Assembly: GCA_951813325.1 (NCBI GenBank)
Contig: OX638350.1
Span: 1,351,029 to 1,415,028 of the forward strand
DNA from: an uncultured Acidimicrobiales bacterium
GTDB taxonomy: Bacteria > Actinomycetota > Acidimicrobiia > Acidimicrobiales > Bin134
Direction of reading: 5' to 3'
DNA length: 64,000 nucleotides
Made by a program: the position numbers and the translations under genes. Positions 10,041-18,921 of this stretch are shown here, in pieces. The notes under the pieces are model-generated. The model did not search any database. It was not told the DNA's origin and saw nothing but the letters and a program-made list of their open reading frames with translations. Positions within the stretch are counted from its first letter, which is position 1. Every line of letters begins with the position of its first letter.

Positions 10041-11900
10041 ATGTTGAACCGCCCGCCCCCCGGCACCGTCCCCGACGCCGCGGGCTCCTACCAGTTCAAA
10101 GACCGGCATGGACGGCTCATCTACGTGGGCAAGGCCAAGAATCTGCGCTCCCGGCTGGGCAGCTACTTCCAGAACCCGGCCTACCTGCCGCCCCGCACCG
10201 CTCAGATGGTGGCCGAGGCGGAATCGGTGGAGTGGATTCAGGTGGACACCGAGGTGGAGGCGCTGATGCTGGAGTACAGCCTCATCCAGCAGCACCAGCC
10301 CCGGTACAACGTCCGCTACCGGGACGACAAGAGCTACCCGTTCCTGTGCGTGACCATGGTGGACGAGTGGCCCCGGGCCATGGTCATCCGTGGCCGCAAA
10401 AAGAAGGGCAACCGCTATTTCGGCCCCTATGGCCACGCCTACGCCATCCGGGAGACCCTCGACCAACTGCTGCGCACGTTCCCCATCCGCACATGCAGCG
10501 ACAACAAGTTCAACCACCACGCCCGGCTGGGCCGACCGTGCTTGCTGCATCACATCGAGAAGTGCGCCGGCCCGTGCGTGGGCGAAGTAGAGCGGGGGCG
10601 CTACGACCAGATGGTGGACGATTTGCTGGCCTTCCTCGGCGGCGACACCGACGAGGTGGTGAGGAGGCTGGAGGGCGACATGGCCGCGGCCGCGGCCGCC
10701 CTGGAGTTCGAGCAGGCCGCCCGCTGTCGGGACCGGCTGGCCAGCGTGCGCAAGGCCATCGAGGGCCAGGAGATGGTGGGGGGCCGCTCCGAGGACTACG
10801 ACGTGATCGGCCTGGTGGACGACGAGCTGGAGGCCGCCTGCCAGGTGTTCTACGTGCGCAAGGGCCGGGTGATGGGCCGCCGGGGGTTCATCGTGGACAA
10901 AGCCGGCCAACTCAGCCGCCCTGAGCTGGTGAGCCGGGTGCTGGAGCGGCTGTATTTCGAGGAGAACCCGCTGGGCGGCCCCAAGCAGGTACTGGTTCCC
11001 GACCTGCCCGACAACCAGGAGCTGTACGAGGAGTGGCTGCGAGAGCAGCGAAGATCAAAGGTGGGCATCTCGGTGCCCCAGCGGGGGGCCAAGCGCAAGC
11101 TCCAGGAGACAGTGGCCCGCAACGCCGCCGATGCGTTCGCCCGCCACCGGCTCAAGCGGACCTCCGACCACAACAGCCGGGCCCGGGCCCTCAACGAGCT
11201 TCAAGACAGCCTCGGCCTGCCCGAGGCCCCGCTGCGGATCGAGTGCTACGACATGAGCCACCTCCAGGGTTCGGACTATGTGGGCTCGATGGTGGTGATG
11301 GAAGACGGGCTGCCCCGAAAGTCGGAGTACCGCCGGTTCAAAGTGCGCACCGTGGACGGCAACGACGACTACGCGGCCATGGAGGAGGTGCTCACCCGCA
11401 GGCTGTCCAACTACCTGGCCGAGCGGGACCGCCCGGTGGACGAGCGGGGGAAGTTCGCCTACCCGCCGCAGCTGCTGGTGGTGGACGGCGGCAAGGGCCA
11501 ACTGGGGGTGGCCGAACGGGTGCTGGCCGAGCTGGGCCTCGACGGAGAGATCTTCCCGGCCGGGCTGGCCAAGGAATTCGAACAGATCTTCGTGCCCGGC
11601 CAACCCCACCCGGTGGAGATTCCCCGGCCGTCGGAGGGCCTGTACTTGCTTCAGCGCATCAGAGACGAGAGCCACCGCTTCGCCAACGACTACCACCGCC
11701 AACTGCGGGGCAAGCGGATGACAAAGTCGTCGCTCGACGGCATAGACGGCCTCGGCCCGACCCGCAGAACCCGCCTGGTCAAAGAGCTGGGCGGAGTGCG
11801 AGCAGTGGAGCGGGCCACGCTCGGCGACTTGCTGGCACAGAGCTGGCTTCCCGACGCAGTGGCCCATGCGGTATACGAGAAACTCCACGGCCCGCAATGA
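10041..11900 (+). CDS. uvrC: Excinuclease ABC subunit C
   Basis: This 619-residue UvrC makes both incisions during nucleotide excision repair after UvrAB finds damage. The order of domains is a GIY-YIG nuclease at residues about 12-90 (GSYQFKDRHGRLIYVGKAKN), a UVR/UvrB-binding helix pair near 205-235 (LEFEQAARCRDRL), an RNase H-like 5' nuclease at about 370-540 (ECYDMSHLQGSDYVGSMVV, LVVDGGKGQLG), and a helix-hairpin-helix end (LDGIDGLGPTRRTRLVKELGG). The last codon overlaps the next gene's ATG as ATGA. In many actinobacteria uvrC is followed directly by rapZ; here a methyltransferase intervenes. Confidence 0.97.
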   Translation: MLNRPPPGTVPDAAGSYQFKDRHGRLIYVGKAKNLRSRLGSYFQNPAYLPPRTAQMVAEAESVEWIQVDTEVEALMLEYSLIQQHQPRYNVRYRDDKSYPFLCVTMVDEWPRAMVIRGRKKKGNRYFGPYGHAYAIRETLDQLLRTFPIRTCSDNKFNHHARLGRPCLLHHIEKCAGPCVGEVERGRYDQMVDDLLAFLGGDTDEVVRRLEGDMAAAAAALEFEQAARCRDRLASVRKAIEGQEMVGGRSEDYDVIGLVDDELEAACQVFYVRKGRVMGRRGFIVDKAGQLSRPELVSRVLERLYFEENPLGGPKQVLVPDLPDNQELYEEWLREQRRSKVGISVPQRGAKRKLQETVARNAADAFARHRLKRTSDHNSRARALNELQDSLGLPEAPLRIECYDMSHLQGSDYVGSMVVMEDGLPRKSEYRRFKVRTVDGNDDYAAMEEVLTRRLSNYLAERDRPVDERGKFAYPPQLLVVDGGKGQLGVAERVLAELGLDGEIFPAGLAKEFEQIFVPGQPHPVEIPRPSEGLYLLQRIRDESHRFANDYHRQLRGKRMTKSSLDGIDGLGPTRRTRLVKELGGVRAVERATLGDLLAQSWLPDAVAHAVYEKLHGPQ

Positions 11901-12661
11901 CCGGGGAACACCCTGGGGAAACCGCGGATCATGCCCTGTGGGAACAACACGCGGGGTGGTGGCAGGCGCAGTGCACTGATGGCGCCGATCCCGAGTACGC
12001 CGAGCTGATCGTCCCGCTGGCTGCCGAACTGCTGACCGGGCACGACCGGGTGTTGGACATCGGCGCCGGCGAGGGGCAGCTTTCTCGCCTGGCGGCCGGG
12101 CTGGGTGCATCCTTGGTGGTCGGGGTGGACCCCACCCGGGCTCAAGTTGCCGAGGCCGCCCACCGCCGTGGGGGGCCGCTCTATGCCCGGGGACAGGCCG
12201 AGGCCCTGCCACTCGCCGATCGGTCATTCGACGCCGCGGTGGCCTGCCTGGTGTTCGAGCACATCGACGCCATGGACGCCGCCGTGGCCGAGGCGGCCCG
12301 GATGCTGCGCGACGGCGGTCGGTTCCTGCTGTTCTTGAACCATCCGCTGCTGCAAACCCCCGACAGCGGTTGGATCGACGACCACATCCTCGACCCTCCC
12401 GAGCAGTACTGGCGGATCGGTGCGTACCTGCGCGAGAGCGTGATGATCGAAGAAGTGCAAAAGGATGTGTTCTTGCCATTCGTCCACCGCCCGCTCAGCC
12501 GGTACGTGAACGCACTGCGGGACGCGGGGCTGGCCATCGACCGGATGCTGGAGCCCGCCCCGCCGCCTGGCTTTCTGGCCGCAGCCCCGGAATATCCCCA
12601 AGCCGAGGCTATTCCCCGCCTGCTGGTGCTGGTGTGCCGGAAAGAGCCGCAGGCGGTTTGA
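11897..12661 (+). CDS. SAM-dependent class I methyltransferase
   Basis: This 254-residue protein overlaps the uvrC stop by 4 bp. It has a Methyltransf_11-type core: VLDIGAGEGQLSRLAAG (SAM loop), VVGVDPTRAQV (acidic residue contacting the ribose), ALPLADRSFDAAVACLVFEHI and EAARMLRDGGRFLLFLNHP. The substrate cannot be deduced. The tight coupling to uvrC means it is co-transcribed with DNA repair. A relic of the uvrC/rapZ junction at 15.7 kb lacks this gene, suggesting it was inserted between them. Confidence 0.85.
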   Translation: MTGEHPGETADHALWEQHAGWWQAQCTDGADPEYAELIVPLAAELLTGHDRVLDIGAGEGQLSRLAAGLGASLVVGVDPTRAQVAEAAHRRGGPLYARGQAEALPLADRSFDAAVACLVFEHIDAMDAAVAEAARMLRDGGRFLLFLNHPLLQTPDSGWIDDHILDPPEQYWRIGAYLRESVMIEEVQKDVFLPFVHRPLSRYVNALRDAGLAIDRMLEPAPPPGFLAAAPEYPQAEAIPRLLVLVCRKEPQAV

Positions 12662-12726
12662 CCTGCCCTTTTGCACTGAAGTTCGCGAAAGAGCCTGAGC
12701 AACTCCTTCTCGGCCGTTAGCCTGAA

Positions 12727-13602
12727 GTGGTGGCCGAGTTCGTGGTGATCACCGGGATGTCGGGGGCGGGCCGGTCGCAGGCCGCCAACCATTTCGAAGA
12801 CTTGGGCTGGTACGTGGTGGACAACCTGCCGCCCGCACTGCTGCCCAAGGTGCGGGAGTTCGCCGACGCCCCCGACAGCGGCATCTCCCGAGTGGGCTTG
12901 GTGCTGGGATTGAACCTCTACCACGAGGAGGTGGCCCCCGCGCTGGCCGCCCTCAAGGCCTCTTCCGAAGGTTCGGTGCGGATCCTCTTCCTCGACGCCT
13001 CCACCCCAGTGCTGGTCAAGCGCTTCGAGAGCACCAAGCGCCGCCACCCGTTCGCCGGCGCCTCCCCGATGGGGGTGTCCGACGCCATCGAGGCCGAGCG
13101 GGAGGCCCTGGGCTATCTCCGCAGCGAAGCCGACGTGGTGGTGGACACTTCTGAATACAGCATCTACCAGCTCAACCGCTTCATCGACGAGGTGTTCGAA
13201 CTGGACGCCGGGCCCGAGTCGGTGACCACCCGGATCATGTCGTTCGGCTTCAAGCACGGCATCCCGCTCGATGCCGACCTGGTGCTGGACTGCCGCTTTT
13301 TGCCCAACCCCCACTGGGTGGAGGAGCTCCGCCCGCTCACCGGCCAACACGAGGCGGTGAGGGACTTTTTGCTCAACGGCCAGCCCATGGCCGAGACCTT
13401 CCTCCAAAAGACCGAGGATCTGTTGGCGATGTTGGTGCCCGCCTATGTGCGGGAGGGCAAGTCGTATCTCACCATCGCCTTCGGCTGCACCGGGGGCCAC
13501 CACCGCTCGGTCTTCGTGGCCGAGGACATCAACCGCCGCCTCGTCGAGAACCCGGAACTCGGCGTCCGCCCCCTGGTCATCCACCGGGACATCGACAAAT
13601 AG
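12727..13602 (+). CDS. rapZ: RapZ/YvcJ-family nucleotide-binding regulatory protein
   Basis: This 291-residue protein of the RapZ (RNase adapter) family has a Walker A motif GMSGAGRS near residues 10-17, followed by WYVVDNLPP, a family signature. The C-terminal domain carries SFGFKHGIPLDADLVLDCRFLPNP and AFGCTGGHHRSVFVAEDI, both diagnostic. The start is GTG at 12727 or 12730. In E. coli it regulates GlmS through small RNAs; in actinobacteria it sits in the uvrC-rapZ-yvcK-whiA locus and binds nucleotides. The usual yvcK and whiA do not follow here. Confidence 0.93.
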   Translation: MVAEFVVITGMSGAGRSQAANHFEDLGWYVVDNLPPALLPKVREFADAPDSGISRVGLVLGLNLYHEEVAPALAALKASSEGSVRILFLDASTPVLVKRFESTKRRHPFAGASPMGVSDAIEAEREALGYLRSEADVVVDTSEYSIYQLNRFIDEVFELDAGPESVTTRIMSFGFKHGIPLDADLVLDCRFLPNPHWVEELRPLTGQHEAVRDFLLNGQPMAETFLQKTEDLLAMLVPAYVREGKSYLTIAFGCTGGHHRSVFVAEDINRRLVENPELGVRPLVIHRDIDK

Positions 13603-13626
13603 CCCGGAGAGGTGGCGGCGCAGCCC

Positions 13627-14625
13627 TCAGGTGATTTCTCGAGACTCCGCCACCATGGCTTCGCTGTCCTCCCACAGCTTGGCCCCGTTGTCGGGGTCGG
13701 CTGCGCTCTCCGACACTGGTTTGCGATTCATCAGGTGGAGGTACATCCCGGTGGAGGCCCCCGCTTCGTCCGAGCAGCAGAGGTAGACGATCGGGGCGAT
13801 GGCCTTCTCGGGAGACCGGAAGAACAGCCGCAACGCCGGGTTGACGATCGGCTTCAGCAGCGCCGGAGCGTCTCGGGCGATTCTCGTGGCGACGCCACCC
13901 GGGCACAGGGCGTGCACGGCCACCTCGGTTCCCCTGCTCGGGTTCAGGCGGCGCGACAGCTCGGTGGCATAGGTGCTCAACACCAGCTTGCTGAGGCCGT
14001 AGTGCCGCATGCTCTCCTTGATCCCGTACTCGGTGTATTTGCCGAGGTGGTCGAACTCAATGGCGCCGGCGGACCGGTGTGACTCCGATGAGACGAACAC
14101 GATCCTCGGCGGCTCGCCACCCTTCTCCGCGGGACGGATGACCCCATCATGAAGCCAGCAGTCGATCATCACTCGCTTGGACAAGAAGTGGACCGCGAAC
14201 ATGGTGTCGTACCCCTGCGGGGTCTCCCTCGCGGTGGGCGTCATCAGGCCGGCGTTCATGAGCGCGATGTCGATGCGGATGCCGCTTCGTCGCAGCTCGT
14301 CGTAGCAACGATGCACCGAGCGGACATCGGCCAGGTCCACCTCGACCATCTCTACGGTCTCCGATCCAGACGCCTCCTTGATCTCGTCGCAGGTGTCGTC
14401 ATGGCCGGGGCGGCAGGCCAGGATCATGTTGCCCCCTCGCCGGGCCAGTTCGATGGCGGCCGCCCGGCCCAATCCGCTGTTGGCCCCGGTCACCAGACAC
14501 GTCTTGCCGTCGATCCGCACGTCATCGGGGACCGGGTCGACATCGGGGGTCTTCAAATTGCGGAAGTCGCGGACAGCCCCGACGATCGCGTTGGCCACGG
14601 TGCGTTTCTTTGGTGGTCGGCTCAT
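13627..14625 (-). CDS. Short-chain dehydrogenase/reductase, retinol-dehydrogenase-like
   Basis: This 332-residue SDR has the NAD(P)-binding TGANSGLGRAAA, the NAG motif in ALMNAGLM, the catalytic serine in IVFVSSESH and the catalytic YGLSK. The start MSRPPKKRTVANAIVG adds an unusual basic lead of about 35 residues before the core. It is most like the light-dependent protochlorophyllide reductase/retinol dehydrogenase-like group of SDRs. It converges with rapZ, with 24 bp between stops. The divergent intergenic region upstream holds nested inverted repeats that may bind a regulator. Confidence 0.85.
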   Translation of the reverse strand: MSRPPKKRTVANAIVGAVRDFRNLKTPDVDPVPDDVRIDGKTCLVTGANSGLGRAAAIELARRGGNMILACRPGHDDTCDEIKEASGSETVEMVEVDLADVRSVHRCYDELRRSGIRIDIALMNAGLMTPTARETPQGYDTMFAVHFLSKRVMIDCWLHDGVIRPAEKGGEPPRIVFVSSESHRSAGAIEFDHLGKYTEYGIKESMRHYGLSKLVLSTYATELSRRLNPSRGTEVAVHALCPGGVATRIARDAPALLKPIVNPALRLFFRSPEKAIAPIVYLCCSDEAGASTGMYLHLMNRKPVSESAADPDNGAKLWEDSEAMVAESREIT

Positions 14626-14852
14626 GGCAAAAGGTACCTCGTTGATCGTGGACGGTTTGGCGCCCGGTGAGCCTGGTGTGGGCTATTCAATGGGGATCGT
14701 GGTGGGTCTGCACGACTGCCGCGCCGCCGAGCACCCTGAGAAAGACGTCGAGGCGCTCCAGGTGAGGCGAGGTCTTGAGCACCCAGGCGCAGGCCGGTCT
14801 GGCTCGCCTGTTAGCGGGAGCAGCCGACCTGCACGCCTCTTCCAGGTTTGTC

Positions 14853-14889
14853 AAGTATCAAAACATGACGGATACTTGTTATGTTTTGA
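14853..14889. promoter_or_regulatory. Nested inverted repeats, probable operator
   Basis: Two inverted repeats interlock: AAGTATC (14853-14859) pairs with GATACTT (14871-14877), and TCAAAACAT (14858-14866) pairs with ATGTTTTGA (14881-14889). The arms are perfect and the segment is AT-rich. It lies between the SDR gene (minus) and the lipoprotein gene (plus), which suits a TetR- or MarR-like operator. No regulator gene is adjacent. Confidence 0.5.
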
Positions 14890-14966
14890 CACTCCTTTTG
14901 GTTGATCAAGCCGTGGGTCGGTGAACTCCACCGGTGGCAGCATGCAGAAGAAAAGGAATGGACACT

Positions 14967-15647
14967 ATGAAGTCACGTTCAGCGCCTGCAACCGCAGCAC
15001 TAGGCCCAAATCCAACAGTTCAGAGGCCGGCTAGTCGCCATATCCACGTTCGTCTGCTTCAATACCTTGCATTCGCCATCGCAGCTCTGATAGCGGTTGC
15101 ATGTGGTTCCAATGCCGAGTCCGAGGGAGCATTCTCCTATTCTTACGACTCGTACTTTCAGTCCTTTGCATTTGACTACAACCCGGCTACCACAGCCGAG
15201 GATCTGGCCAAACGCTCAACAGTCGTCGTTGAAGCCACGCTGGTTGATGTCAAGAACGGACGTTTCTTTGGCGCTTCTGAGACAGAACCCGAAGGCGTAA
15301 CCCTTAATCTCGTGTTTGGGACGGACGACAAGACGAGATATTACGTTCAGTTACCCAGACCAATGGATTCGGACGTAACACAGCTGCGTTCTGTACTGCC
15401 CATCGGCTCTCAAAGCGTTATCTATCTACAGCCAAACAACGATCCCTTGGAAGGTGTTTGGCACAACACTCGGAGCGATGGCAACGAGTGGTACTTCACC
15501 ACACCGCAGGGCTGGATCCTTGACCATTCAGAACGAGGAATCGTATTCCCACTTGTGGATAACGAGTTAGAACCGCCATTTCGCGAAGCTCCCACTGGTG
15601 CAAGCGACAGTCTAAAGGACTGGCTGGTCGGCGAGGGGCGGGTCTGA
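14967..15647 (+). CDS. Putative lipoprotein of unknown function
   Basis: Start ATG 14967 is chosen because an AAGG lies about 10 bases upstream; ATG 14958 is also in frame. The N-terminus has basic residues, then a hydrophobic stretch (LLQYLAFAIAALIAVAC) ending in a lipobox-like AVAC, predicting lipid attachment and export. The mature part begins GSNAESEGAFSYSYDSYF and has a predicted beta-rich body (STVVVEATLVDV, RYYVQLPRP, SVIYLQPNND). I do not recognise a domain. The gene ends exactly where a degenerate uvrC-like relic begins. Confidence 0.65.
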   Translation: MKSRSAPATAALGPNPTVQRPASRHIHVRLLQYLAFAIAALIAVACGSNAESEGAFSYSYDSYFQSFAFDYNPATTAEDLAKRSTVVVEATLVDVKNGRFFGASETEPEGVTLNLVFGTDDKTRYYVQLPRPMDSDVTQLRSVLPIGSQSVIYLQPNNDPLEGVWHNTRSDGNEWYFTTPQGWILDHSERGIVFPLVDNELEPPFREAPTGASDSLKDWLVGEGRV

Positions 15648-15648
15648 A

Positions 15649-15750
15649 CTGGCTCCTTGATGCAGCGGCCCATTCGGTGTACGAGTTGCTTCACGCCCCG
15701 AGGCGAGATCGGTAGCCTGAAATTGTGGCCGAGTTTGTGATGAACAAAGG
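15649..15750 (+). pseudogene. Degenerate copy of the uvrC 3' end joined to the rapZ 5' end
   Basis: Bases 15649-15701 align with the last about 55 bases of uvrC (11846-11895): the relic reads NWLLDAAAHSVYELLHAP where UvrC reads SWLPDAVAHAVYEKLHGP. After about 10 bases, GTAGCCTGAAATTGTGG followed by a GCCGAGTTTGTG-like run (from about 15711) aligns with TTAGCCTGAAGTGGTGG at the rapZ start (12719-12735), giving VAEFVMNKG and a stop. The relic therefore holds a compact uvrC-rapZ junction without the methyltransferase gene that separates them at 11.9-12.7 kb. Differences are spread through the match, so the copy is old or came from a related strain. Confidence 0.7.
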
Positions 15751-15758
15751 ATGAGACG

Positions 15759-15918
15759 GTGAGATTCGGCCTGCTGTCGACCTCGGCACACGACTGGAGG
15801 GTGCCGATGAGCCAACAGATCGCCGAGCATGCCGCAGTGGCCCGGATGCAACCATGCCCACGCCATGGCTCAACTCAAGCGGTTCGGCGCCGAGGTGACC
15901 CCGCTATTGTCCGGCTAG
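15759..15918 (+). pseudogene. Collapsed luciferase-like (LLM) oxidoreductase gene
   Basis: A GTG at 15759 opens a frame reading RFGLLSTSAHDW and then IAEHAAVARMQ, like the start of an LLM-class flavin oxidoreductase. From 15850, in another frame, NHAHAMAQLKRFGAEVTPLL ends at a stop at 15916-15918, like the C-terminal helix of the same family. Almost the whole barrel is missing. An intact LLM gene starts 12 bp further on, so the relic may be an older neighbour or a partial duplicate. The assignment is from pattern only. Confidence 0.45.
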
Positions 15919-15930
15919 AAAGCAGGGTCT

Positions 15931-16938
15931 ATGGGATCGGACAATATGCCTTACCGCGGTCCACGGATTGGCCTCTGCTTGCCCTATGAAGGCTCGGCCA
16001 CGGCTCAGGACGTCGTGGATGTGGCTCAAGCGGCGGAGTGGGCCGGGCTGGACTCGGTGCGGGTGGGCGACCACATCGCCTTTCCGGTGGAGTTCACCTC
16101 GCAGAACCCGACCATGGCTGATGGCAAGTACCCGTACCCCATCGACAATCCCCGCCTCGAGGCGCTCACCACCCTGGCCTATGTCGCCGGGGCGACGTCC
16201 ACCATCAGGCTCATGGTCAACGCCTGCGTGCTTCCCCAGCGCAACCCGGTGATCATCGGCAAGGCCGTGGCCACGCTCGACTACCTGTCGGGGGGAAGGG
16301 TGATCTTCGGGGTGACGCTCGGGTGGCTTCGAGAGAACTCGTCACTGGGGCAGGTGATGGGCGGGTGGATGGTGATCTTCGGGGTGACGCTCGGGTGGCT
16401 TCGAGAGGAATTCGACGCCCTCGGTGCCGACTACCCCCACCGTCGACAACTGTTGGAGGACGGCATCGAGATCCTGCGCGCCCTGCGGGAGCAGGACCAG
16501 CCCTCCTATGAAGGGGAGACCTACTCGTTTGCGCCCCTCAACATGAGGCCCAAGCCGGTGCAGTCGCCGGTGCCCATCTTCGTGGGCGGCCACTCCCGGG
16601 CCGCGCTCCGCCGGGCGGCGGCAATGGGAGACGACTGGCTGGCCGCCCGGATGGCTCCGGATGACTTGCAGGAGCATGTGAGCTTCCTGTGCGAAGAGCG
16701 CAAGCAATCGCCCCGGGCCGACCAGCCGTTCACCGTGGCCGCCACCTGTCCAGCGGCAGTTGGGGGTCAAAACCCGAATGTGCTCGACGTCGGTGACCGG
16801 GACGCAACGCTGAGCACTCTGGTGGCGCTGGGCGAAGCCGGGGCCGATGTCGTCAACATGGTGGTCGTCTCGTATGACCCCGCCGAGACCCGGGACGCGG
16901 CCGAAGCCCTGGACCGGCACTGTGGTCCAGGTCGGTAG
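15931..16938 (+). CDS. LLM-class (probably F420-dependent) oxidoreductase with internal in-frame duplication
   Basis: This 335-residue luciferase-like TIM-barrel protein uses reduced F420 or FMN. Motifs are [24 protein letters not shown], the metal/flavin-region [30 protein letters not shown] and [22 protein letters not shown]. The last, a hallmark, is present twice: residues [12 protein letters not shown] recur 24 residues later because of a 37-bp direct repeat. The insertion lies next to the cofactor pocket in this family and may impair activity, though the frame stays open. A second start ATG at 15946 is possible. Confidence 0.8.
   Translation: [335 protein letters not shown]
16299..16407 (+). 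repeat. 37-bp direct repeat inside the LLM gene
   Basis: Bases 16299-16335 and 16371-16407 are identical (GGTGATCTTCGGGGTGACGC and on to GAGAG). The period is 72 bp, so 24 codons are added without a frame change. The spacer encodes [12 protein letters not shown], not found at this place in the family. Confidence 0.9.
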
Positions 16939-16941
16939 GGG

Positions 16942-17016
16942 TCAGGCAGAGCCCACCACCCCAGCCACCACGTAGCCGTCGGCGGTCTGGAACGCCTCAT
17001 AGGGCACCACCACGCT
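16942..17016 (-). pseudogene. Fragment of a CaiB/BaiF-type CoA-transferase gene
   Basis: On the minus strand the bases read SSVVVPYEAFQTADGYVVAG, then VVGSA and a stop at 16942-16944. PYxAFxTADGxxV is a well-known segment of family III CoA-transferases, normally mid-protein and followed by VGND. Only about 25 codons remain. It abuts the plus-strand AtuA-like fragment. Confidence 0.5.
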
Positions 17017-17017
17017 G

Positions 17018-17329
17018 GAAGGCACCGGCGGGGCGGTGGACATCGGCACCATGAAGACCCAGTTGGCCTATGAGATCCACGATCCGGCGGCCTGCCTCAC
17101 CCCTGATAGCACCGCCGACTTCACCCCAGTCTGGGTGGAAGAGATCGGCTCCGATCGGGTGCAGGTCGGCGGCGCGACGGGCCGCCCCCGCCCCGACACG
17201 CTCAAGGTACTGGTGGGTGTGGATGATGGGTGGAAAGTGAGGACCGAAGCGCTAGTGGTGTGTCCCGCAGCCTGCGAACCGACCCCCACGGCAAGTCCTA
17301 CCAATCCCTCATCCTCGACATCGACGTAG
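17018..17329 (+). pseudogene. Fragment of an AtuA-like (DUF1446) gene
   Basis: From 17018 the frame reads EGTGGAVDIGTMKTQLAYEI, then HDPAACLTPDSTADF and GATGRPRPDTLKVLVGVDDGW, close to the middle of acyclic terpene utilisation AtuA/DUF1446 proteins (YEIHDPxxYLTPDVxADF, GRPRPxTLKV). No start region or C-terminal half is present. After GW the frame becomes unlike the family. A different frame at 17256-17355 encodes VSRSLRTDPHGKSYQSLILD, ending DADDKIKR-stop, possibly the tail of yet another lost gene. Confidence 0.55.
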
Positions 17330-17364
17330 ACGCCGACGACAAGATCAAGAGGTAGCTTTGGCTC

Positions 17365-18921
17365 ATGGCCAACGCTGCCGCTCGCACAGCTGGCACGTTT
17401 GTGGTGACTGTGTGGGTTGCGGCCGTCTTGGGCGGTTGTGGCAGCGCCGGCCATGACGCGGTTTCACCACCAGTGACCCAGCCATCTGTTGGAGGTGGAA
17501 CCGAGACCGGCATTGTCGAAGACAGCTCTGAGTTTCCAGTGGACTCTGGGCTCCTCCCGGTCACCGGCTGGGCAAAAGTCCAGTTTCCCGAATCAGTGGC
17601 GGGGCCGCATTTGATTGCCGCTTGGACCGGTAGCGAATTGATGCTGTGGGGCAGCAAGGCCGATCTTGGGTTTGCCTACAACCCGGAGACAGCAACGTGG
17701 CGTCAGCTAGCTGCGAGTCCCAGGCCTGCTGTTTACGGCACTGCGAGCGCCTGGACCGATGACGAGGTCATCGTCTACTGGGGGAACGAGTCCCCCTCGG
17801 TGTCCGCCTATGACCGGCAAACTGACACATGGCGCTCACTGACCGACGCGCCGATCACCAGTGTGTTTTCTGCCGACATCCTCTGGAATGGCACTGAAGT
17901 GTTGCTTATAACCGAACGCAGAGTCGCGGTCTATCACCTCGAATTAGATGCCTGGGAGGTGGTCGCTGTTCCGCCAACTCGACTGGGACGCAGCCGCGAA
18001 ATCGCATGGACCGGCGCTGAGCTGTTTGTTTGGCCAACAGAAACATCACGGTCGACAAAGCGAGGACTTGCCTACAACCCCATTGAGGACACCTGGAGAA
18101 CGCTGCCCGACCCACCGGCATGGCCGGCGATGCCCGATGCCGTGTGGACCGGCGAAGAGCTCATCGTATGGGGCGGTCTTCCCGGCTCCGCGGTTGTCGA
18201 CTACTCAGAACGTGCCGCCGGTTCGGCGTACGACCCGTCCACAGATGCATGGACTGCGATGCCTGAACCCCTTCCCGAACCAGAAAGCTATGAAGGCAAC
18301 TTGGGAAGCCAGACGCTGATGTGGACCGGAACCGAGCTCATCGTCTCGACTGGTCACTTGGGAACCGGCCTCGGCACCGCGGAGTCCTTGCTGCTGAGCT
18401 ACCAGCCCCGTAACGAGACCTGGGAACTCTTGGGAATCTCACCAGTGTCGGGATACAACGCCACAGGCATGGTGGCGGGCAACCGACTGGTCTTATTCGA
18501 TGTCGGTGGGCTCTTCGTCTCTGAGCCCCAATGGGGTTCCCTGGACAGGGGCGAGCCGCAAGACAAAAGAGCTGAGGGCGGCTCCGTTGCAGAACCTGCT
18601 GCGGCGGTTGAGGCTGAGATCGCGGGCGTGTTGCCCAATGGCGATCGATATCTTGTGAGAGCTGAGCCGGCGCTCCCGGACACTGTCGAGGGAATCCATG
18701 CGGCGATTGTCATTGACCTGGATGATGGTGAGGCGCCGATTGAGGGCCCGATCGTCGGCATTGCGACCTTCCACTCCAGTGCTGGAACGACCCCGAGAGC
18801 CTTCTATGGTCGGCAAGATCCGGTTGTCGTCGCTTCCGAGAACTGCAACATGGTTCTCAATTGGCCGGTCAGCCGGTGGCGAGGTGCTCTCGGAGCTCGA
18901 CTTTGCGGATTTTGCCGGTGA
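17365..18921 (+). CDS. Kelch-like repeat lipoprotein, 3' end running into a convergent gene
   Basis: This 518-residue exported protein has a signal ending in LGGC (VTVWVAAVLGGC), a lipobox. Residues about 60-380 contain about six beta-propeller (kelch-like) repeats with the pattern WTGxELxxWG and then YxPxTxxW, for example AWTGSELMLWGS, WTGEELIVWGG and AYDPSTDAW. A second domain follows (AEIAGVLPNGDRYLVRAEPA, VEGIHAAIVIDLDDG) of unknown function. The final residues (about 18869-18921) overlap the 3' end of the opposite acyl-CoA ligase by 53 bp and look unlike a natural end (WRGALGARLCGFCR), so the gene may be 3'-truncated. The role is unknown, presumably at the cell surface. Confidence 0.65.
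   Translation: MANAAARTAGTFVVTVWVAAVLGGCGSAGHDAVSPPVTQPSVGGGTETGIVEDSSEFPVDSGLLPVTGWAKVQFPESVAGPHLIAAWTGSELMLWGSKADLGFAYNPETATWRQLAASPRPAVYGTASAWTDDEVIVYWGNESPSVSAYDRQTDTWRSLTDAPITSVFSADILWNGTEVLLITERRVAVYHLELDAWEVVAVPPTRLGRSREIAWTGAELFVWPTETSRSTKRGLAYNPIEDTWRTLPDPPAWPAMPDAVWTGEELIVWGGLPGSAVVDYSERAAGSAYDPSTDAWTAMPEPLPEPESYEGNLGSQTLMWTGTELIVSTGHLGTGLGTAESLLLSYQPRNETWELLGISPVSGYNATGMVAGNRLVLFDVGGLFVSEPQWGSLDRGEPQDKRAEGGSVAEPAAAVEAEIAGVLPNGDRYLVRAEPALPDTVEGIHAAIVIDLDDGEAPIEGPIVGIATFHSSAGTTPRAFYGRQDPVVVASENCNMVLNWPVSRWRGALGARLCGFCR

Follow-up and report, generated by a model that had tools for sequence, protein, structure and literature searches.

A decayed uvrC-rapZ junction in an acidimicrobial genome as a probable remnant of an ancient tandem duplication

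The window analysed here is a stretch of 64,000 nucleotides that forms part of a 3.59-Mb single-contig genome of an uncultured Acidimicrobiales bacterium (G000, the present genome). Its congeners are Acidimicrobiia MAGs, e.g. 'Candidatus Poriferisocius' and OX638344.1, whose names suggest a sponge-symbiont setting for the present genome as well. The genus sample comprised 22 genomes and the uvrC-rapZ junction was readable in 21 of them, the present genome counted. The genes in the window follow each other in the order Rieske oxygenase, nadA-like gene (minus strand), uvrC, methyltransferase (MT), rapZ, short-chain dehydrogenase (SDR, minus strand), lipoprotein-like gene, a relic of the uvrC-rapZ junction, fragments of a luciferase-like monooxygenase (LLM1) and a second gene of this type (LLM2). 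The features used below are the following, in window coordinates:

10041..11900, plus strand: uvrC, functional copy (Pfam UvrC_RNaseH_dom, UVR and GIY-YIG)
11900..12661, plus strand: class I methyltransferase gene (MT) in the uvrC-rapZ interval (Methyltransf_11, E 3.6e-20)
12727..13602, plus strand: rapZ, functional copy (RapZ-like_N and RapZ C-terminal domains)
13627..14625, minus strand: SDR (adh_short), by synteny the usual neighbour of rapZ in many congeners
14680..14800, minus strand: truncated remnant of a sulfotransferase gene (tblastn of 14621-14800 to sulfotransferase residues 291-347), proposed to close the first copy of the duplicated unit on the right
14801..15645, plus strand: insert of low GC content (53% vs 64%) that contains a palindrome and the lipoprotein-like gene, the proposed filler at the duplication join
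15643..15652, plus strand: joint between the lipoprotein 3' end and the uvrC tail, at the short match CTGARCTGGC
15646..15700, plus strand: decayed uvrC 3' end (42/55 to uvrC of the present genome, 44/55 to that of G013)
15701..15746, plus strand: decayed intergenic gap of the compact-19 type (defined below), containing GATCGGTAGCCTGA, and rapZ start (rapZ head 31/37)
15741..15827, plus strand: upstream region and head of LLM1 (76-81% DNA identity to the LLM1 starts of G014, G007, G013 and G015)
15828..15919, plus strand: tail of LLM1 (81-89% identity to the LLM1 tails of G003, G006, G013, G015, G018 and G019)
15931..16938, plus strand: LLM2, intact luciferase-like monooxygenase (Bac_luciferase, E 3.7e-42)

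The initial annotation of this DNA had read the relic as the end of uvrC followed by the start of rapZ, and pairwise alignment bore this out. Nucleotides 15646-15700 match uvrC 11840-11894 without gaps and nucleotides 15710-15746 match rapZ 12715-12751, both with an E value of about 1.7e-5 within the window. Local scores of the uvrC and rapZ halves (45 and 44) exceeded the best scores of 2000 shuffles (29 and 30) as well as the maxima obtained on about 1960 real windows (33 and 32). When 15640-15930 was used as a genome-wide query at E <= 0.001, it retrieved no match beyond the relic and the true start of rapZ. At about 15741-15746 the rapZ-like part gives way to the LLM1 upstream region. The absence of the methyltransferase had also been pointed out: no methyltransferase-like sequence lies between the two halves, which are spaced like an MT-free junction.

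Relatives with such a junction were found. In G003, G005, G013, G017 and G019, uvrC and rapZ are separated by one particular 19-nt gap without MT ("compact-19"), and the entire 103-nt relic aligns to these functional junctions as one unit with a single gap and 79-81% identity. This contiguous match includes the same spacing and GATCGGTAGCC, common to the relic and the five congeners. The motif GATCGGTAGCCTGA is present in the gap of the relic and of these five genomes only, while gap lengths in the other compact congeners range from 27 to 84 nt, mostly with CGTTAGCC or CATTAGCC. Since the 19-nt gap with GATCGGTAGCCTGA is shared and the other compact gaps differ, the relic is a compact-19 junction. 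It diverges by about 20% from every living junction, those of the compact-19 strains included, and has GGTGTACGAG..GCTTCACG in common with the uvrC gene of G007, which argues against a recent import from a compact-19 strain.

The relic is a non-functional genomic fossil that shows no sign of function. Second codon positions account for 5 of its 12 changes from the consensus and for 8 of 110 in working copies (Fisher p 0.003), an excess that a dead copy should show. The rapZ remnant reads VAEFVMNKG-stop, i.e. 9-10 codons. A reading as a structured RNA element was set aside, since no Rfam family matched 11500-17500 at E values up to 0.5.

The lipoprotein-like gene that precedes the relic probably starts at 14967 and stops at 15645-15647; homologues sit at other places in G008, G015 and G001. 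Upstream of it, at 14858-14889, we observed a near-perfect palindrome, TCAAAACATGAC-N8-GTYATGTTTTGA, which looks like an operator or a small repeated element: one more copy occurs in the present genome (G000:C1:3556152) and one to three in G007, G013, G014 and G015, some of them adjoining a TTGACA-like promoter element. The relic had been placed exactly at the 3' end of the lipoprotein gene, as a possible recombination scar. A recombination joint does lie there, but the uvrC-like part begins inside the stop codon, the gene passing into uvrC at CTGAACTGGC (15643-15652). The native 3' flank of the lipoprotein gene in G015 (contig C33, another site) is CCTGAACTGGCCC and uvrC reads CCTGAGCTGGCTC at the joint, and comparison of the two locates the joint at a short match. 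In G007 and G014, the equivalent position reads CTGAGCCAGCTACCCGACCTTGTGGCCTATTCGAAGG, the right part of which is the native 3' flank of the sulfotransferase gene (TGGCCTATTCGAA in G013 and others). In the 35-mer that follows the lipoprotein gene in these two genomes, the final 11 nt correspond to the sulfotransferase side and the preceding 22 nt, read in the register that GGCCYATTCG imposes, match uvrC at 16/22 (null p about 1e-4). Over the 13 nt most distant from the lipoprotein joint, the match to uvrC is 9/13 (p about 0.007). In the present genome and in G014 alike, the GGCCYATTCG landmark stands 37 nt away from the same base of the lipoprotein gene. The lipoprotein/uvrC joint is thus probably common to the present genome, G007 and G014, the latter two keeping a shorter uvrC stub that may owe part of its likeness to uvrC to a chance short match at the joint. 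The short matches are CTGARCTGGC at the lipoprotein/uvrC joint, TGGCCYATTCG at the uvrC/sulfotransferase joint of G007 and G014 and TGA at the rapZ/LLM1 joint of the present genome.

The sulfotransferase gene normally comes after SDR. Congeners without the lipoprotein insert have a single sulfotransferase gene directly after SDR, in the order SDR - sulfotransferase - Y - LLM1 - LLM2. In the present genome, G007 and G014, a truncated sulfotransferase gene lies between SDR and the lipoprotein gene, and G007 and G014 possess a complete one downstream of the lipoprotein gene. The G014 fragment keeps residues 291-460 and ends on the right at the same residue as that of the present genome (residue 291); an internal deletion is common to the truncated genes of the present genome and G007. 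Identity of the G014 fragment is 91.8% to the complete downstream copies of G007 and G014 compared to 81-85% to all other strains, and it clusters with these downstream copies in the tree (support 98). For the sulfotransferase, the copies are therefore each other's closest relatives, the uvrC/rapZ relic itself being too short to place. This duplication is lineage-specific and constitutes evidence independent of the relic. The idea of a single-strain curiosity is weakened, as G007 and G014 share the lipoprotein insert and the duplicated sulfotransferase gene with the present genome and have a probable uvrC stub.

On the other side of the relic, the LLM1 head meets the LLM1 tail, in a different frame, through an internal deletion of about 0.8 kb; LLM1 is intact (about 354 codons) in G013, G015, G018, G006, G003, G007 and G014. 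The neighbouring LLM2 contains a 45-nt stretch twice (16291-16335 and 16363-16407, 72 nt or 24 codons apart, in frame), and BLAST alignments of LLM2 to relatives break at this repeat, as expected if these have one copy. The SDR-LLM interval is an insertion/deletion hotspot in the genus. At locus L033 (G007:C1), about 15 kb are inserted between gene Y and LLM1, with ORFs that by eye have the appearance of a sugar ABC transporter, a LacI-type regulator and dehydrogenases. Further downstream, at 17349-18860, a kelch-repeat gene (17365-18921) is found in the present genome, G007 and G015, while the corresponding site in G013, G014 and G018 lacks it.

We consider it probable that the relic is the still surviving left edge of the second copy in an ancient tandem duplication of roughly 2.6 kb. 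In the ancestor of the present genome, G007 and G014, a block extending from the uvrC tail through rapZ and SDR to the 3' third of the sulfotransferase gene would have been duplicated in tandem. The join between the copies would comprise the truncated sulfotransferase gene, about 840 bp with the lipoprotein gene and the uvrC tail, entered at CTGARCTGGC, and may have been produced by short-match template switching or illegitimate recombination. Later deletions at short matches would have pruned the redundant second copy. In G007 and G014 the deletion runs from the uvrC stub to the sulfotransferase end; in the present genome it runs from rapZ codon 6-8 into the region upstream of LLM1, at a shared TGA, and LLM1 has lost its middle as well. 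That second copy would have carried the MT-free compact-19 junction still seen at the functional locus of five congeners. One event with such a complex join would account for both the relic and the second sulfotransferase gene. The relic with its junction type, the two sulfotransferase genes with their kinship and today's joints are observed; a single duplication event, its mechanism and the order of the deletions are what we infer. The second copies occur in the same order and orientation, with the sulfotransferase fragment before the lipoprotein insert and the uvrC tail-rapZ head after it. Left-flank trees group the present genome with G007 (100/100) and G014 next, whereas the right-flank tree groups G007 with G014 (support 98), in agreement with their common deletion to the right of the lipoprotein gene; the difference between the trees implies recombination between both flanks. 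Only the present genome has kept the rapZ head of the relic. Remnants of the body of the second rapZ or of the second SDR are present in none of the genomes examined, so that the full extent of the duplicated unit is deduced. No undegraded two-copy intermediate was found among the 22 genomes of the genus; such an intermediate, itself deduced, is not strictly required, as redundant copies are expected to be lost. The initial annotation had left the choice between a duplication that carried the junction and recombination with a related strain: the sulfotransferase duplicated on either side of the lipoprotein gene speaks for the former, and the divergence of about 20% makes a recent import unlikely.

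A foreign patch was also considered: a short piece of uvrC-rapZ DNA from a compact-19 strain, taken up and inserted through short matches at the lipoprotein gene on one side and LLM1 on the other, with the loss of at least 2.5 kb in between, the sulfotransferase duplication being a separate, smaller event. The relic's junction type belonging to another lineage, the MT in the functional copy of the present genome and the short matches at both ends of the relic are compatible with such a foreign patch. However, it requires an independent event at the same lipoprotein position and with the same 37-nt spacing as in G007 and G014, and we regard it as unlikely.

MT lies between uvrC and rapZ at 51 of the 68 loci of the genome collection where both genes are visible, and at 44 of 52 once the genus's own 16 loci are removed; uvrC-MT-rapZ is the common order in other Acidimicrobiia. 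Among the 21 readable genomes of the genus (present genome included), MT is present in 8 and the junction is compact in 13, with several different gaps. The compact order had been taken as the older one, but the prevalence of the MT order outside the genus and the differing gaps inside it indicate instead a derived loss that occurred more than once. The position of MT (11900-12661) is widely conserved across Acidimicrobiia, yet within one genus the gene was repeatedly lost, leaving different gap lengths, and apparently exchanged. The functional locus carries MT in the present genome, G007 and G014 while the relic is compact-19, so a plain duplication of the present-day locus is insufficient. 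Either both alleles circulated in the ancestor, or recombination changed one of the copies, or the second copy lost MT, in which case its MT-free allele also passed to the compact-19 strains. It is conceivable, though we hold it only tentatively, that the relic keeps a compact-19 allele now gone from the functional locus of its lineage, one clade having held MT-bearing and MT-free loci side by side. If so, this fossil would serve to follow, and to place in time, the recombinational exchange of MT among sponge symbionts.

This mismatch would be directly explained if the relic were a displaced native copy: a donor segment from the uvrC 3' end through MT, rapZ, SDR and the sulfotransferase fragment to the lipoprotein gene would have entered a compact-19 ancestor, by homologous recombination within uvrC at one end and through a short-match joint at the other, so that the old junction came to lie further downstream and decayed there. 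The genus shows recombination around MT, since rapZ of G011 and G020 groups with that of G018. Against this, the upstream sulfotransferase fragment and the downstream copy are of the same lineage. In addition, an AU test on trees around uvrC3-MT-rapZ rejected the flank grouping with all strains in (p 0.0057), but the conflict was not significant without G011 and G020 (p 0.136); with this signal gone, import of the functional uvrC3-MT-rapZ block is not claimed. We judge such a displacement very improbable. Finally, although each half is short when taken alone (55 and 37 nt), chance similarity or an assembly artefact can be dismissed with near certainty: the two halves are collinear and each exceeds all controls, together they align as a unit with the real junction of five genomes, which already refutes both, a divergence of about 20% is not that of a misassembled working copy, and related joints occur in the separately assembled G007 and G014.

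A tandem duplication with later loss makes the relic a case of ordinary genome evolution with an unusually readable anatomy, well explained in kind, and no identical case was found in the literature searched. During cat amplification in Acinetobacter baylyi, duplications arise mainly via illegitimate recombination between regions sharing 0-5 bp (PMC9997567). The duplication proposed here resembles these in being head-to-tail, joined at little sequence identity and followed by loss of the redundant copy, but it is old and fixed in a lineage of several species, an 840-bp filler occupies the join, the second copy persists in fragments only and there is no evident selection for amplification. Microhomology-mediated template switching (FoSTeS/MMBIR) has been named for human FOXL2 deletions (PMC3597517). 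As in that mechanism, the join is complex, with a piece from elsewhere between two joints; here, however, it is bacterial, and template switching is a candidate mechanism deduced from the sequence alone. The row of uvrC, rapZ, sulfotransferase and LLM1 fragments between intact genes also resembles the remnants ordinarily left by deletion bias, except that these fragments come, in collinear order, from a duplicated block and not from a single decayed gene. Odd strings of gene fragments between intact genes can thus be duplication debris and not new genes or regulatory elements, and, from sequence alone, the duplication of a piece of chromosome in an uncultured lineage can be traced through fragments of about 100 bp.
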